Assembly (NCBI GenBank): GCA_013204045.1 | Contig: JABMOQ010000086.1 | Location: 1-41,830 of the forward strand | DNA: 41,830 nucleotides | Source: Rhodospirillaceae bacterium | GTDB lineage: Bacteria > Pseudomonadota > Alphaproteobacteria > Rhodospirillales > JABHCV01 | Direction of reading: 5' to 3' | Part shown: in pieces, positions 6,712 to 29,905 of the stretch | Layout of the letters: each line of letters begins with the position of its first letter | How positions within the stretch are numbered: position 1 is the first letter of the stretch | Position numbers and translations under genes: made by a program | The notes under the pieces: generated by a model | What the model was told of the DNA's origin: nothing | What the model saw: only the letters and a program-made list of their open reading frames with translations | Databases searched by the model: none

Positions 6712-7258
6712 GCCGTAAAAAAAAGTAAAGAAACGAAAGCCAATTTCTTCAATGAAATCAATGGCCGGAGAGTCCGAAGCCATTTTCAGCGCGGCGAGGG
6801 GGGCGCCGAGCGCATAAAAAAAATGAAAAAACAAAGCCATTTTTCCCAATAGAATCAAAGGCCCCCGATTCCGCACCCCCCGAGGCGCGATCCTTCGCAC
6901 CCCCCGGCCCCGACAGGGGCGGACGCGCGGGCGAGGATTTTCCTATTCACCGTGGCAAAGAACACGTTAGCGAAACGATAGGATTATAGTCTTTTTATAG
7001 GTATATGTCAAGGTTTAGGGGATTTGCGCGGGCGCTTTTTCCCAATTGGGAGAAAATACGTTCAAGGTAAAATCGGCATAGGGAAATAGGGCGTCTGCTT
7101 GTGGCGAGAGTCCAGACGTGCATTATCCGATCAACTAGAGTCTGCTTTTAGCCAGGAGCGGACCTGTGACGTTGCAGTAAGTGTTGGCCACACAAAAGCC
7201 ATCGACTTCAACTATTTCGAGTGCAACAATAATCCATACGAATTTATGGGGGCTTGCT
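6712..7258. other. Gene-free spacer at left edge of accessory islet
   Basis: About 550 bases with no convincing gene. It begins with a poly-A-interrupted, imperfect duplication (6716-6863), passes through a C/G-rich block (about 6860-6930), and then becomes AT-rich from about 6940. The change marks the boundary between the core genes and the AT-richer islet. Reverse frames over 6360-6900 are shadows of the peroxiredoxin. A short plus-strand frame at 7099-7290 overlaps the start of the next gene and is not supported. Confidence 0.5.
6716..6863 (+). repeat. Imperfect direct duplication of ~50 bp
   Basis: Copy 1 is at 6716-6766 and copy 2 at 6815-6863, about 99 bases apart. Both start with T followed by eight A residues and contain AAAGCCA, then a T-rich stretch, CAAT, GAAATCAA or GAATCAAA, and end in GGCC. 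Roughly three quarters of positions agree by eye. It lies directly behind the peroxiredoxin stop codon and may be a relic of local duplication or an insertion site. Confidence 0.5.
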
Positions 7259-7840
7259 ATGAGCTATTCGGTTCGCGCACCCGGCGTTAATCTTCCGGCA
7301 ATTAGCGAAAATGGAGTTTTGGATAGTTTGCTTGGATTGTTGAAAGAACCGCTGATTATCCCAATCTATTCCGCTCTTGTAGCGGTGGTTATAGCATTCA
7401 TCGCACAGTGGATTTGGGATTCTCACAAGGCAAAAAAGGCGCGATACCACGCTTTGCTGATTGTTCGTGAAGCACTACTCGATCAAAGGCAACGTTTTGC
7501 AGACATGAGACGCCACATGGAGCAAGAAAAGTCCTATATTCATTCGAGCGTTGATGCCCACGTTATAAAGAGTTTTCTCATAGGTACGCACGTCGATGTC
7601 GTCATCGATAAACAACTGATTAATGCACTGAACGCTTATCTAGGCTCTCTGAACGGTTTATCAACCGCGCTGTCCAGAATTGACTTCGCTAGTGGCGGGT
7701 ATACCAACGTTCAGCATGAATACAAGGCGCGCCTGGAACAGGGTATTTTGGAAGCCATCCCTAGCTATATCGCGGAAATCGAAAATTGTATTTTTGAAAT
7801 AGACAAGGTTCCGCAAGGAAGCATCGAGATAACGAGTTGA
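7259..7840 (+). CDS. Small membrane-anchored helical protein, partner of the next ATPase
   Basis: I do not recognise a family. The start is the ATG at 7259, with a GGGGG run (7248-7252) about seven bases upstream; longer frames add a low-complexity N-terminus without support. The product has 193 residues: a short N-terminal part, one clear membrane helix at about 33-53 (IPIYSALVAVVIAFIAQWIW), a basic stop-transfer segment (HKAKKARYH), then a long, mostly helical charged region (65-185). This is probably a membrane anchor with a cytoplasmic helical domain. The stop TGA overlaps the TTG start of the AAA-DUF4435 gene (TTGA), so the two are very likely coupled. Codon use is AT-richer than in the flanking core genes, which suggests transfer. 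A sensor or effector role in defence is inference only. Confidence 0.75.
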   Translation: MSYSVRAPGVNLPAISENGVLDSLLGLLKEPLIIPIYSALVAVVIAFIAQWIWDSHKAKKARYHALLIVREALLDQRQRFADMRRHMEQEKSYIHSSVDAHVIKSFLIGTHVDVVIDKQLINALNAYLGSLNGLSTALSRIDFASGGYTNVQHEYKARLEQGILEAIPSYIAEIENCIFEIDKVPQGSIEITS

Positions 7841-9552
7841 TAGGCACTGAATTGACCCAAATTGAATATATAGCTGCAACGCATGGCTATTTTAAGTTCG
7901 AGTTCCCTCGAATAACTGTAATTCTGGGTGCCAATGGGTCAGGTAAATCCACTCTTCTTCGTGCAATAAAAGATAGTCTACCAAGCGTTTATGTTGAAGG
8001 TGGGCGGACCATTACTATAAATGACGTGGTACAGTTGACACGCCAAAACTTTAACGATTATCAGAATTATGACGCTACATTAGTCCGCTATAAGCAAAAG
8101 CGAAAAGAAAAACTGGTTGACAGAATCTTTGATGCAATCATGGTCCTAATTCAGCGGGATCAAACAATTAAAGATACTCATTCCGATGCGGTAGTAAGGT
8201 GGGTAGATGAAGGGAAGAAGGGAGACCCGCCCATACGTGAGCAGCCACCTCTGGAGAATTTGTTCGACCAGTATAATGAGGTGTTCCCGCACATACACCT
8301 ATCATACAATAAAAAAAATGGTCAGGTAACGGTCATGAATGATAATGCACCGGAACCATATGGCCCGTCAGGATTATCCGATGGGGAGAAACAGGTGTTT
8401 TCCCTGTTGGCAGATATGCTGCAACTTGAAGACGAATACAATATCGTTGTTGTTGATGAACCTGAATTGAATCTTCATCCTGAACTTGCTGAGCGTCTTT
8501 GGGCATTGCTTGAATCCGAGTATCAAAGCAAACATTTCCTTTATGCAACGCACAGCATTCAATTCGCTTTACGTTCTCATGTGGACGCTCTCTATGTGAT
8601 TTCATCTGATCCAAGCAAGATACGAAAGCTTTCGAATCTTGCTGAAATGCCAAGAACCGAACTTGAAAATTTCTTAGGCGGCGTTCCTGGCATACTCAAT
8701 GCAGGGGTGGTAGTCGTAACGGAGGGGCATGAAAAGTCATTCGATTCAATATTCTATAGATGGTTGCTCGCAGACAGCAAAGCAGAGATATTCCCGTGCG
8801 GAAGTTGCAACGATGTTAAGCAGGTGATTGATAAACATGGTCTATGGGGGCAAGTCTCAACAGACATTAAGATGTCTGGTGTAATAGACTCAGATTACCG
8901 TTCAGCGGATGAGTTAACACAAATTACAGAAAATCACCTCATCTCACTTTCTTTGCATGAGGCTGAATCGTTTATCTGTATTCCTGATGTTATTGTGGCA
9001 GCAGCACATAAGATTGGATCAATTAACCCGATGCCCACGGTGAATGAAGTGGAGGATATAATTTTTGATGTACTGCAAGGGCAGCGCTTACAGATTGCTT
9101 TAAAAAGATGCTTTTCTGAGTCGTATCACACAGCTCGTATGTCGTTAGAACGCTCTATCTTGGCTGGGCTGACAACAAAAGAAGAAGCAATGGAGCATAT
9201 TAGGGGGAAATCTGCCGAGGAGGTGCGTAAAGCTGTAGATGCGATGAGCGAAGGAGTTTTTGAGCAAAAACTTGATCAGGAATTACTGGAAATAGATAAG
9301 ACGCTGGGCGAAAGAAACACCCTAATTGCTCTCAAGTTTGTTCCCGGGAAAGAATTGCTAGCCAAATTAGCGCCGCGTACTGGATGCAAAAACGGCACAG
9401 ATTTAATGCGCTCAATAAAAAGGAATTTGCCTGTAGATGAATTCGAGCCATTAAAGCTTTTCGCTGACGAGCTTAATGCAAGCTTTGCAGAACAGGTCGA
9501 AGCAATAGATGCCCTCCCTGCATGGGTGGATGTTGAAGTTGGGGAAGCTTGA
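7837..9552 (+). CDS. AAA ATPase fused to DUF4435/TOPRIM-like domain (PARIS/OLD-like)
   Basis: A 571-residue protein with two parts. Residues 1-260 form an ABC/SMC-like AAA_21 ATPase: Walker A GANGSGKST (31-39), signature LSDGEKQ (180-186), Walker B IVVVDEPE with D207 and E208, then LNLHP and the switch histidine in ATHS (H239). Residues about 288-400 resemble DUF4435, a TOPRIM-like fold: VVVVTEGHEK with E296, the acidic IDSDYR motif (D351, D353), and an E-rich LSLHEAESF motif (371-379). The remainder is a helical C-terminus. In PARIS immunity the ATPase AriA and the DUF4435 protein AriB are usually separate, and fused forms are known as I recall. OLD nucleases have the same logic. The start is TTG at 7837, overlapping the stop of the membrane protein gene; an in-frame TTG at 7852 is an alternative. 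AT-rich codon use marks it as acquired. Confidence 0.85.
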   Translation: MIGTELTQIEYIAATHGYFKFEFPRITVILGANGSGKSTLLRAIKDSLPSVYVEGGRTITINDVVQLTRQNFNDYQNYDATLVRYKQKRKEKLVDRIFDAIMVLIQRDQTIKDTHSDAVVRWVDEGKKGDPPIREQPPLENLFDQYNEVFPHIHLSYNKKNGQVTVMNDNAPEPYGPSGLSDGEKQVFSLLADMLQLEDEYNIVVVDEPELNLHPELAERLWALLESEYQSKHFLYATHSIQFALRSHVDALYVISSDPSKIRKLSNLAEMPRTELENFLGGVPGILNAGVVVVTEGHEKSFDSIFYRWLLADSKAEIFPCGSCNDVKQVIDKHGLWGQVSTDIKMSGVIDSDYRSADELTQITENHLISLSLHEAESFICIPDVIVAAAHKIGSINPMPTVNEVEDIIFDVLQGQRLQIALKRCFSESYHTARMSLERSILAGLTTKEEAMEHIRGKSAEEVRKAVDAMSEGVFEQKLDQELLEIDKTLGERNTLIALKFVPGKELLAKLAPRTGCKNGTDLMRSIKRNLPVDEFEPLKLFADELNASFAEQVEAIDALPAWVDVEVGEA

Positions 9553-9620
9553 TGTCTCCTTAGGGTCAGGTGCAGCCATAATTGCCCTGCCAATTTGATG
9601 TCCACTATGGGTATGCCACC

Positions 9621-9755
9621 TCAACCGGTCGACGCAACACATGCATTAAATCTCTCAGCTGGCGTTTCAAACTCCAGCGTTTTGCGGGGCCGTTCATTTA
9701 GCTGCCGGGCTACCTTGTTCAGTTCAGCCTGAGGGCGCGCAGAACCCATGTCCGT
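9621..9755 (-). pseudogene. IS30-family transposase C-terminal remnant
   Basis: Read on the reverse strand from 9755 to the TGA at 9621-9623, the sequence encodes about 44 residues that match the end of IS30-family transposases. It includes ELNKVARQLNERPRKTL, then ETPAERFNACVASTG before the stop. The RPRKTL and TPAERFN motifs are hallmarks of this family. Upstream the frame is closed by a stop and the rest of the element is missing, so this is a dead fragment. It sits between the fused ATPase gene and thiE, exactly where the AT-rich islet meets core sequence, and probably records how the islet arrived. Confidence 0.85.
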
Positions 9756-9834
9756 TCAGCGCTGGCATGTCAGCACTTTCAAATAATCGACTTAAAATTT
9801 TTAGTGCCGCTTAAGTAAAATCAAGAAAATTTAA

Positions 9835-10482
9835 TTAGCCGCCGGCTCCGGATTCTTCCGATAAAATTTTATTAAATGCCCCGACCGCTTTCGCCGGGCC
9901 GTCCGGATGATCCCAGACGCCGGAAACGACGGCGATGAAATCGGCCCCGGCCTGCACCAGGGGGCGGCAGTTTTCGACCGTAATGCCGCCGATGGCGACG
10001 CACGGGATGAGCATGGACTCGCGCCACATTTCCAATACTTCCAACCCGGCATGGGTATCGGGCACTTTGGTGGCGGTCGGGAAGAATGCGCCGAAGGCGA
10101 CGTAATCGGCGCCGCGCTCGGCGGCGATCATGGCCAGATGCCGGGAATCATGACAGGTAACGCCGATGGTGGCCTTGGCACCGACAAGCTCGCGGGCCTG
10201 GTCATAGGCCATGTCGGACTGACCGATATGGACGCCATCGCAGCCGGTCTCTGACGCCAGCTGCGGGGCGTCGTTGAGAATAAAGGCGACGCCGCGCTGC
10301 TGGGTCATGGGGCGCAATGCATCAATGGCGCGGCATATGTCGTCCTCGGGCGCCCCCTTCAGGCGCAGTTGCAGGGCCGCCACATGGCCGCCGTCGAGGG
10401 CCGCAGCAAGGGTGTCGGCAAACGCCGGCACATCAATGACCGGCGGGGTGACCAGGTACAACCGGCAGGGCGGCAGGCTCAT
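9835..10482 (-). CDS. thiE: Thiamine-phosphate synthase
   Basis: Joins HMP pyrophosphate with thiazole phosphate to form thiamine phosphate in the cytoplasm. The 215-residue length fits the family. The TIM-barrel shows LQLRLKG near residues 37-43, the DGVHIGQSD motif (82-90), and a phosphate-binding AIGGIT segment (about 162-167) followed by [12 protein letters not shown]. Its ATG overlaps the stop of the upstream 135-residue gene by four bases, so the two are coupled. The substrate HMP pyrophosphate would be supplied by thiD, which is found at 31268-32083. No TPP riboswitch is visible upstream of this gene pair. Confidence 0.94.
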
Positions 10483-27095: not shown

Positions 27096-27914
27096 ATGTT
27101 TGCCGGACTGCCACTTGACCGCCCATTGATCATGGGCGTCGTCAATGTGACGCCTGACAGTTTCTCAGACGGGGGCGAGGCGGCGACTGTGGCTGCCGCC
27201 ATTGAACGCGGCCATGCCATGGTGGGCGATGGCGCAGACATCATCGATGTCGGCGGTGAATCGACCCGCCCCGGCGCTGCCCCGGTGCCCCTTGAAGAAG
27301 AACTGGCCCGCGTGATCCCGGTCATTACCGCCTTGGGCGATGCCGGGTGCGCCGTTTCCATCGATACCCGCCACGCCGCCGTTATGGCGGCGGCCATCGA
27401 CGCCGGGGCCAAAATCGTTAATGACGTGACCGCACTTTGCGGCGATCCGGGGTCGCTTGATGTGGTCGCCGGCAGCGCCGCCTCGGTCATTCTTATGCAC
27501 ATGCAGGGCGAACCCGGCACCATGCAGAATGCCCCGCAATATGAGGACGCGGCCCAGGAAGTTCGTGATTATCTGGCCGGGCGCATTGAGGTCTGCGTCA
27601 AGGCGGGGATTGCTATAGAGCGCATCGCCATCGACCCGGGCATCGGCTTCGGCAAGACCCTTAAGCACAATCTGGATATCCTGAACAGGCTGGCCCTCTT
27701 TACGGGCCTTGGCTGCCCGTTGGTGCTGGGGGTATCCCGGAAAAGCTTCATCGGCAAGATATCCGGCGACGACAACCCGAAGGGCCGCCTCGGCGGTTCG
27801 CTGGCGGCGGCGCTGGCCGGTGTTACCCGCGGGGTCGCCATCGTGCGCGTTCACGACGTCGCCGAAACCCGGCAAGCACTGGCCGTGTGGCAGGCGATAG
27901 GGGCGGCCACATAG
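27096..27914 (+). CDS. folP: Dihydropteroate synthase
   Basis: Condenses para-aminobenzoate with the pterin pyrophosphate to make dihydropteroate, the sulfonamide target. It has 272 residues from the ATG at 27096, eleven bases after ftsH; a longer frame lies inside ftsH. Signatures are GVVNVTPDSFSDGG (14-27), DVGGESTRPGA (51-61), DTRHAAV and NDVTAL, IDPGIGFGKT and GVSRKSF. In many bacteria ftsH-folP-glmM form one block. Here folP is followed by an acquired islet and glmM is 2 kb away. Confidence 0.97.
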   Translation: MFAGLPLDRPLIMGVVNVTPDSFSDGGEAATVAAAIERGHAMVGDGADIIDVGGESTRPGAAPVPLEEELARVIPVITALGDAGCAVSIDTRHAAVMAAAIDAGAKIVNDVTALCGDPGSLDVVAGSAASVILMHMQGEPGTMQNAPQYEDAAQEVRDYLAGRIEVCVKAGIAIERIAIDPGIGFGKTLKHNLDILNRLALFTGLGCPLVLGVSRKSFIGKISGDDNPKGRLGGSLAAALAGVTRGVAIVRVHDVAETRQALAVWQAIGAAT

Positions 27915-27938
27915 CCGTCCACGATGATGGACCTAGAA

Positions 27939-27967
27939 ATACTATTATTATGTGAAAATAATAGTAT
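27939..27967. promoter_or_regulatory. Perfect AT-rich inverted repeat, candidate operator
   Basis: ATACTATTATT (27939-27949) and AATAATAGTAT (27957-27967) are perfect 11-bp arms around a 7-base centre. The site lies 24 bases after the folP stop and ends 10 bases before the likely ATG of the dual-OB gene, where a repressor or self-regulator would bind. TAGTAT (27962-27967) inside the right arm could act as a -10 element and give a very short leader. There is no T-run, so a terminator is less likely. Confidence 0.6.
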
Positions 27968-27977
27968 GCTTTCTACC

Positions 27978-28649
27978 ATGAATATCATCATCACCGACGT
28001 GACAGATATGGGCGGAGGGCACATTTGTGTCGCCGGTTGGTCGCCTGACGAGGGACGTATGATTCGGCCCTTGCATGGTACTGGACATCCTCATTGGGAT
28101 GAGCATTTGGCCCAGGACGGTATCTTCTGTCCCGGAAATGTCATTTCGATTATTCCTTCTGGGCATCCACCTAATCGCTCATTCCCTCATTCAGCGGAAG
28201 ATTGCCTTGTCATCGGTACGCCAAAATTGAGCGAAAACCTCAGCGAGGAAATGATGGTTAGGGCTGTGGCAGGAAGTGTTCATGGCTCGGTTCTTGACTT
28301 GTTTGGCGATGACTTTACCGACAAAAAGTATATTCCGGACAAACAAGGGATTAGGTCGCTAGGCGCGGTGGAAGTTACAACACGAACAATCAGGTTTTAT
28401 GAAAAACCAAATAAAGTAGTTTGTTGGTTTGTCGATAGCGATAACGAAAAATATACGTTCACAATTTCTTGTAGGGCATTAAAGGCTACTCATCTGCAAT
28501 CCGGCACCGAGGGATTGGATGCCCTAAAAACAAGGAAGAGAAAGGCACACATAAGGCTAGGTCTGGCCAACGCTTGGGATGGTCAGCCTGACAATAACTG
28601 GAATCCTAAGCATTGTTATGCGATGGTGAATGGCATATTTTTCGTTTGA
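27978..28649 (+). CDS. Probable dual-OB-domain protein
   Basis: A 223-residue soluble protein from the ATG at 27978; an ATG at 27966 inside the inverted repeat is the alternative. No ribosome binding site is seen, so a leaderless or near-leaderless transcript is possible. The N-terminus (IIITDVTDMGGGHICVAGWSPDEGRMIRPL) and the later GNVISI segment fit my memory of a dual-OB family found next to DUF488 genes; the identification is from pattern only. A second beta-rich half starts near LGAVEVTTRTIRFYE. The C-terminus, with KRKAHIRLGLANAWDG and HCYAMVNGIFF, looks specific. Codon use is AT-richer than folP and glmM on either side. Nucleic acid binding is inferred from the OB fold. Confidence 0.7.
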   Translation: MNIIITDVTDMGGGHICVAGWSPDEGRMIRPLHGTGHPHWDEHLAQDGIFCPGNVISIIPSGHPPNRSFPHSAEDCLVIGTPKLSENLSEEMMVRAVAGSVHGSVLDLFGDDFTDKKYIPDKQGIRSLGAVEVTTRTIRFYEKPNKVVCWFVDSDNEKYTFTISCRALKATHLQSGTEGLDALKTRKRKAHIRLGLANAWDGQPDNNWNPKHCYAMVNGIFFV

Positions 28650-28655
28650 TTCGCT

Positions 28656-29330
28656 TTGGATATAACTGATTTGACCGACAGGCAATCAACCCCGGAACAT
28701 CCAATCGTCTATACGGTGGGACATTCCAATCACACGCTCGAACGGTTTATCGAACTTTTAAAAGATGCCGGTATTACCGCCATAGCCGACGTGCGCTCGG
28801 TACCCTATTCCCGTTTTACAAACCAATTTAACCGCGAAGCTCTAACTGTTGAATTGCGGGCCACCGGAATTGCCTATTCGTTTCTCGGTGAAGAGCTGGG
28901 GGCCAGACCAAAAGATAAATATTGCTACCGGGATGGCAAAGCAGACTTTGGCTTGATCGCCGCAACTCAACTGTTTCAATCGGGACTGGACCGAGTGATC
29001 GAAGGCTCGTTGAAGTATCGTATTGCATTGATGTGTGCCGAGAAAGAACCGCTGGATTGTCACAGAACCATACTAGTTGGGCGAAACCTGAAAGGCAGGG
29101 GGGCGCTTATCCGACATATTCACGCCGATGGACACATTGAAGAAGGCGCCTTGGCCGAGAAACGCCTGATCAAGCATACACAACAGGAAATGGACGATAT
29201 GTTTTCAGCCCCGGAAACCGCGTCCGACCCGCTTGAACGAGCATACGCCGTCAGAGAACAAGAAATTTCCTACGCGGAAGCGCATAAGGAATTGCCGGAA
29301 GTGGATAGGGATTTGGCGGCAGGCATGTGA
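28656..29330 (+). CDS. DUF488 family protein, first of two
   Basis: A 224-residue DUF488 protein. Signature parts are YTVGHSNHTLERFIELLKDAGITAIADVRSVPYSR (about 19-53, given here only as landmarks), FLGEELGARP near 77-86, and the LMCAEKEPLDCHR motif (about 128-140), whose cysteine and CHR are conserved in the family. No ATG is available before the conserved core, so the start must be TTG, at 28656 or 28671. The product extends about 60 residues past the core with a charged helical tail. The function of DUF488 is not established. Its stop overlaps the start of the second DUF488 gene by one base. Confidence 0.85.
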   Translation: MDITDLTDRQSTPEHPIVYTVGHSNHTLERFIELLKDAGITAIADVRSVPYSRFTNQFNREALTVELRATGIAYSFLGEELGARPKDKYCYRDGKADFGLIAATQLFQSGLDRVIEGSLKYRIALMCAEKEPLDCHRTILVGRNLKGRGALIRHIHADGHIEEGALAEKRLIKHTQQEMDDMFSAPETASDPLERAYAVREQEISYAEAHKELPEVDRDLAAGM

Positions 29331-29779
29331 TGATTCGGGAAATTAACCTATTCACAATTGGGTTTACGAAAACGACTGCTGAAAATTTCTTCAATCGCCT
29401 TGTTACAGCCGATGTGTCGCGTGTCATTGATGTGCGCCTGAACATCACCTCTCAACTTTCCGGATTCGCTAAAGGCAGGGATATTGCCTACTTCCTGAAG
29501 GCGATTGGCGAGATCGATTATCTTCACGAACCCTTGCTTGCTCCGACTGATGATATTCTGACGGCATTCAAAAAAAATAAGGGGGAATGGTCAGCATATG
29601 AAACTCAGTTTCTGGACCTTATGGACAAGCGTAAAATTGATGAAAAGCTAAGTCCTGATCTTTTCGAACGAGGCTGCCTGTTGTGCAGTGAAGACAAGCC
29701 CCATCAGTGCCACCGTCGTCTGGTGGCGGAATTCCTGAATGATCGTTGGAATATGGACATTCGAGTTAAACATCTCTAA
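29330..29779 (+). CDS. DUF488 family protein, second of two
   Basis: A 149-residue DUF488 protein, shorter and quite divergent from its neighbour, so it is not a recent duplicate. It keeps the landmarks LFTIGFTKTTAENFF (7-21), VIDVRLN near 34-40, FAKGRDIAYFL and CLLCSEDKPHQCHRRLVAEFL (about 117-137), with the C-x-E and CHRR motif intact. I chose the ATG at 29330 in a TGATG overlap with the previous gene; a GTG three bases earlier is in frame. Tandem, unlike DUF488 genes behind a dual-OB gene suggest that the three products act together. Confidence 0.85.
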   Translation: MIREINLFTIGFTKTTAENFFNRLVTADVSRVIDVRLNITSQLSGFAKGRDIAYFLKAIGEIDYLHEPLLAPTDDILTAFKKNKGEWSAYETQFLDLMDKRKIDEKLSPDLFERGCLLCSEDKPHQCHRRLVAEFLNDRWNMDIRVKHL

Positions 29780-29905
29780 TACCCTTCCTCCCTATTACCG
29801 TACGGCCCTTAACGACCCTGCAACGTTCTGAAACGAAAAGTTAAGTCACCTTTCGGGGGTTTGTGTCATAAAGGACACGATTTTACACCTGTTACGGATT
29901 CGCCC

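Follow-up and report, generated by a model that had tools for sequence, protein, structure and literature searches.

A dual-OB and DUF488 gene trio between folP and glmM of a Rhodospirillaceae bacterium, a putative variant of the candidate system PDC-M45

Why do three small genes of unusual composition stand between folP and glmM in a Rhodospirillaceae genome, and what might they do? We addressed this question in a window of 41,830 nucleotides (the whole stretch of DNA that was analysed, from contig JABMOQ010000086.1). The order of genes on the plus strand is ftsH, folP, the three small genes and glmM, and the genes flanking the islet read as ftsH, folP, glmM and thiD. The folP gene stops at 27914 and glmM starts at about 29906. 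The islet comprises the following features:

27915-29779, plus strand: AT-rich islet of three co-directional genes, between folP and glmM.
27939..27967, no strand assigned: inverted repeat with perfect 11-bp arms separated by 7 nt, located after the folP stop and before the likely start of gene A.
27978..28649, plus strand: gene A, a divergent dual-OB (DuOB-like) protein of 223 aa from its likely start, predicted to bind nucleic acids.
28656..29330, plus strand: gene B, a PDC-M45B-like DUF488 protein of 224 aa with C127-x-E129...C135-H136-R137.
29327..29779, plus strand: gene C, a PDC-M45C-like DUF488 protein of 150 aa with C120-x-E122...C128-H129-R130.

The islet genes have a GC content of 45-51% and a GC3 of 46-51%, and the GC3 of ftsH, folP, glmM and the following gene is well above that, at 73-84%. 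This agrees with the original prediction of an AT-richer three-gene islet that splits folP from glmM. When 400 stretches of the islet's size were compared within the window, 17 matched or exceeded it in AT-richness.

The open reading frame of gene A was listed from 27924 to 28649. Its true start is probably the ATG at 27978 (MNIIITDVT...), since the match to the profile sets in at position 27981 of the window, homologous proteins also begin there, and the Magnetospirillum homologue starts with MQFEIIVTDVT. The protein matched the Pfam family DuOB (PF22557, "Dual OB-containing domain") from end to end with 25 bits, which does not reach the gathering cut-off of 27. The AlphaFold model (pLDDT 89.3) displays two five-strand OB barrels, judged by the order of strands and helices, at residues 2-87 and 128-222. 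Foldseek placed the HIN domain of IFI16 (E 8.7e-5) and Tetrahymena Teb1 on top, followed by human POT1. In the structural alignments (VIA), the best match was the telomere end-binding protein of Oxytricha (Z 7.2, 84 residues, rmsd 2.9), while RPA70 (Z 5.9, 164 residues, rmsd 3.9) and the HIN domain of Ifi202 (Z 5.9, 152 residues, rmsd 5.8) aligned over the whole length. All of these structural matches are DNA-binding proteins, many of which bind single strands or ends. A sequence search with the profile of A against solved structures yielded nothing significant.

Genes B and C, whose reading frames overlap by 4 nt, are the only DUF488 matches of the genome. Both exceed the cut-off of the DUF488 family (PF04343; 22.2 bits), with 85 bits for B and 67.7 bits for C, and C also matches DUF488-N3a, the "Active DUF488-N3 subclade", with 36 bits. 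The CxE...CHR motifs are intact in both genes (MCAEKEPLDCHR in B and LLCSEDKPHQCHR in C). The MCAEKEPLxCHR stretch of B is invariant across 56 sequences, as are its GHS and DVR motifs. In C, the CxE...CHRRL stretch is about 95-98% conserved, and the motif itself about 98%. Because of this conservation, B and C both appear to be active, and neither looks like a decayed copy. Each scores the PADLOC model of the other weakly, and the pair recurs in adjacent genes across phyla. The two forms therefore probably diverged long ago. The proteins correspond to what had been foreseen: one is of the dual-OB kind and the other two are dissimilar DUF488 members that carry the C-x-E...CHR motif, with the proviso that the DuOB match of A is below the cut-off.

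DUF488 is widespread and, to our knowledge, has no established function. The AlphaFold model of B (pLDDT 86.8) resembles the phosphatases laforin, KAP and PRL-1 as well as diphthine synthase-like enzymes, with Z-scores of 7.5-8.7, the best of which is itself middling. By this likeness, which takes in dual-specificity phosphatases, B may belong to the DUF488 clade of the rhodanese-phosphatase superfamily. In such phosphatases, the P-loop is situated where a strand ends and the following helix starts. In the model of B, a strand at 123-127 precedes a helix at 136-147, with C127 at the strand end and C135-H-R at the helix start, a placement that would correspond to the position of the P-loop. Foldseek found nothing under E 0.001 for the B model, and sequence searches of B and C against solved structures gave no match, the profile of B likewise giving nothing significant. 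The fold matches of A and B are of middling strength and do not reveal the substrate.

With gene A starting at 27978, the palindrome lies upstream of this gene and not inside it. Its sequence, ATACTATTATT-N7-AATAATAGTAT, is exact, no other site of the genome comes within 3 mismatches of it, and it folds better than shuffled sequences (z -2.95). Among the regions upstream of other trios, 5 of 53 contained inverted repeats at p<=0.05, little above chance, and in the closest relative (L029) the arms measure only 6 bp. These 53 regions led us to reject the palindrome as a conserved part of the system: of the dedicated palindrome that had been proposed, its exactness and its uniqueness in the genome stand, and its role as a shared component does not.

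The three genes form a recurrent unit. We gathered loci with B alone in a scan of 84,980 species genomes, which yielded 80 loci, and then sought A and C by profiles. A, B and C occurred together in 58 loci, B and C in 3, A and B in 2, and B alone in 17. The genes run A-B-C, except in five loci with B-C-A (L030, L041, L057, L071 and L077), and mostly touch or overlap. The hosts of the trio include proteobacteria, planctomycetes, acidobacteria, Verrucomicrobia, Nitrospirae, Latescibacteria and Deinococcota, among others. Chance co-occurrence of three families was rejected, as 58 of 80 loci were complete even though they had been found with B only. Among the 297 genomes of the order, 4 had full trios, and a single pair of B and C was seen close to the end of a contig. 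This patchy presence, together with the empty site in close relatives, rejects a universal housekeeping islet. Both expectations raised beforehand, that the three families co-occur elsewhere and that not every member of the order has the islet at this site, were thus confirmed.

The B family is also found in other settings. A B-like gene without A or C occupies a conserved chromosomal block in L044, L053, L070, L073, L082 and L093, and the metagenome-assembled genomes with this block belong mostly to Rhodospirillales and other Alphaproteobacteria. This block is a separate use of the family that does not look like defence. B-like DUF488 genes were present on 115 plasmid records, 15 of them with at least 80% query coverage, while gene A was absent from plasmid records. 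Two scans of viral contigs found no relatives, and phage records contained one weak relative only, with a 34% match; these results give no sign that phages move the trio. In four genomes of the same class (L109, L111, L112 and L113) we observed a strong PDC-M45C-like protein (180-221 bits) beside which A and B were not detected, and C may work in another setting too.

The trio as such is already catalogued, as the PADLOC phage-defence candidate PDC-M45. Gene B matched PDC-M45B with 263.6 bits (E 2.5e-79, model positions 6-197 of 204) and gene C matched PDC-M45C with 214.2 bits (E 1.4e-64, model positions 2-143 of 145), both near full length, and the window genes share the adjacent, same-strand A-B-C arrangement. 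The difference lies in A, which had no match to the PDC-M45A models at E<=1, whereas A genes of other loci with the same gene order reach up to 327 bits. The window's A is tied to PDC-M45A homologues through iterative search, and three motifs of their common form, LANS, QxEN and TD, are missing from it. Since this A is too diverged for the PDC-M45A models, the window trio is best described as a variant of PDC-M45 and not as a strict member. The A of Magnetospirillum UT-4 (L029) is 40% identical to that of the window, and these two make up a divergent set to which L037 and L041 belong less closely. Two more copies with the same gene order, L193 and L196, were found directly using the window's A. 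The diverged form is thus a part of the family that current models (PDC-M45A and Pfam DuOB) miss. Our literature search found no paper naming PDC-M45 and no functional test, and PDC-M45 itself is a candidate system only. The original prediction had held that the function of the trio is not established. This stands, with the correction that the trio was already on record.

The neighbourhood of folP and glmM in relatives allowed us to place the insertion exactly. In most relatives where both genes could be read together, the gap between them measures 26-145 bases. Two genomes of the window's family, G001 and G003, have an empty site with a gap of 123-124 bases and a conserved element before glmM, which is also found in the window:

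29816..29847, plus strand: conserved 32-base element upstream of glmM, CCCTGCAACG..CTGAAACGAAAAGTTAA.TC, common to the family members G001, G003 and G002 despite differences in other parts of the gap.

The element is kept at 29816-29847 in the window, and the trio therefore entered between the folP stop and this element, which is perhaps the promoter or leader of glmM. There is no integrase gene inside the insert. At the same spot, a genome of a sister genus in the same family (G002) carries a different module (4789-6004 of L178, contig C22). It consists of a DUF488 gene that matches PDC-M19A and a gene for a protein of 262 residues that matches PDC-M19B. The shared element and glmM come next, so that the leader is spared there as well. 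PDC-M19B was detected in 8 of 289 genomes of the class. Chance is a poor explanation for a PDC-M45-like and a PDC-M19 module at one site in two genera, because each is rare. Relatives further removed have other genes in this place: two 7TMR-DISM histidine kinases and a response regulator in G033 (3846-8918 of L180), and a UPF0029 gene in G020 (1373-1996 of L183).

PDC-M19 (DUF488 plus M19B) also resembles the trio in its composition, as it pairs a DUF488 enzyme with a second small protein, in G002 at the same folP-glmM site. However, it has a single DUF488 gene rather than two. M19B and the dual-OB family have in common a weak C-x-AG...W-x-R signature, with an hhalign probability of 78%. Conversely, M19B has no Pfam DuOB match, and window-type A alone aligned poorly with it (9%). 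Judging from the 78% match, PDC-M19B and the dual-OB family may be distantly related. As far as we checked, what is new here is the divergent form of A, the folP-glmM site common with PDC-M19, and the embedding of trios in Hma operons.

This embedding was observed in five loci (L048, L060, L061, L066 and L078), in which the trio lies between, and touches, a gene of the HmaB family (DUF1156 methylase) and one of the HmaC family (HEPN-DUF499 ATPase). A helicase gene, read from its motifs, lies upstream in L048 and L078, and in L060 a gene downstream of HmaC (9149-9964) looks by eye like an EVE-type reader of modified bases. The trio relatives are thus placed inside Hma/DUF499 BREX-related type 1 systems (PMC12839542); unlike these, the window trio is bordered by neither HmaB nor HmaC. 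The 2026 survey of DUF499-centred systems describes them as BREX-related and reports demonstrated anti-phage activity for the helicase, and DUF488 goes unmentioned in it (PMC12839542). Elsewhere, one gene family lies upstream of the trio in 12 loci, and its sampled member is a Schlafen-AlbA_2/RecG-C protein. Further neighbours are a type I restriction-modification enzyme (L056), an Eco57I methylase with an AAA ATPase (L031), an OLD-type ATPase (L030), an SMC-type protein (L087) and an integrase (L035). In a controlled comparison at E<=1e-20, the number of PADLOC models matched was 132 for 116 neighbours of full trios and 14 for 116 neighbours of B-only loci, a ratio that is indicative only, given automatic gene calls, unequal locus numbers and the repeated counting of related models. 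Many trios are solitary, including the window copy and that of its closest relative (L029).

Based on these findings, we postulate, with a probability of roughly 0.5, that the islet is a laterally moved module divergent from PDC-M45, which combines binding of nucleic acid ends or strands with cysteine-based phosphotransfer and serves in defence against invaders. What we observed directly is the gene content, the conserved trio and its motifs, the patchy presence, the exact place of insertion and the company of defence genes elsewhere. The defence role is argued from guilt by association, and the binding, the substrate and the chemistry are predictions. In this mechanism, the dual-OB protein A would hold single-stranded or end-bearing nucleic acid, as its modelled fold suggests. 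B and C would be two different enzymes of the rhodanese-phosphatase type that use their conserved cysteine(s), most likely for phosphotransfer or else for a similar reaction, on an end or nucleotide presented by A. The system would most likely process or mark the nucleic acid of the invader, acting alone, as in the window, or supplementing Hma/BREX-related and restriction systems. Given its divergence, the role of the window's A could have shifted. In 2023, Burroughs and Aravind reportedly predicted that DUF488-clade proteins of conflict systems process DNA ends. The self-contained system for repair, modification or defence that had been suggested from the islet is well supported as an accessory, defence-associated module, and its role is that of a candidate. 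The trio also offers a small handle on the function of DUF488, being kept across phyla, found inside defence operons and alternating with another DUF488 system.

A more ambitious version of this proposal can be put forward only tentatively. It would make the trio an immune module of a biochemically undescribed kind, in which A delivers ends and the two DUF488 enzymes act sequentially, and would make the folP-glmM gap a swap site for PDC-M45-like and PDC-M19 modules.

Defence is not the only use to which an end-binding protein and two putative phosphotransfer enzymes could be put. The dual-OB protein might bind broken DNA or RNA ends while the two DUF488 enzymes clean blocked termini, in which case the module would spread for its benefit under damage and not against phages. 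The match of the A model to end-binding proteins such as the Oxytricha telomere protein and POT1 would fit such end repair, a two-step end reaction would suit two distinct enzymes, and the copies of the window and L029 sit alone among chromosomal genes. We nevertheless consider end repair unlikely, as patchiness, the exchange with PDC-M19 at a single site and the excess of restriction and Hma genes nearby are all typical of defence, and no known repair gene was recognised among the recurrent neighbours of the trios.

More doubtful is a module for marking or licensing self, in which B and C would add or remove a DNA modification recognised by A, so that partner restriction systems spare host DNA. 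The five trios between the Hma methylase and ATPase genes and the EVE-like gene of L060 would be in line with this idea, but most trios, that of the window included, adjoin no methylase of that kind. We also know of no modifying activity for DUF488.

It seems very improbable that the trio is a toxin-antitoxin-like or dormancy module with one toxic DUF488 enzyme restrained by its partners: although the genes are small and overlapping and the upstream palindrome could serve autoregulation, both DUF488 motifs are intact, neither protein resembles a neutralised partner, and the palindrome is unconserved in other trios. DUF488 proteins have been grouped with the C-terminal domain of RapZ, a glucosamine-6-phosphate sensor, and both the window trio and the DUF488 module of G002 adjoin glmM; the idea that they regulate or process the substrate of GlmM is hardly tenable all the same, and was rejected as a main explanation, since it is largely refuted by the absence of glmM and folP from the vicinity of all related loci (0 of 80), the genes are missing in close relatives, and the dual-OB partner and the defence company would be left unexplained.

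The window contains a second AT-rich islet, at 7181-9552 (GC 42-45%), with two overlapping genes. These encode a 219-aa protein with a start resembling a membrane helix and a 571-aa P-loop ATPase (GANGSGKST) of OLD/DUF4435-like appearance, possibly another accessory defence pair.
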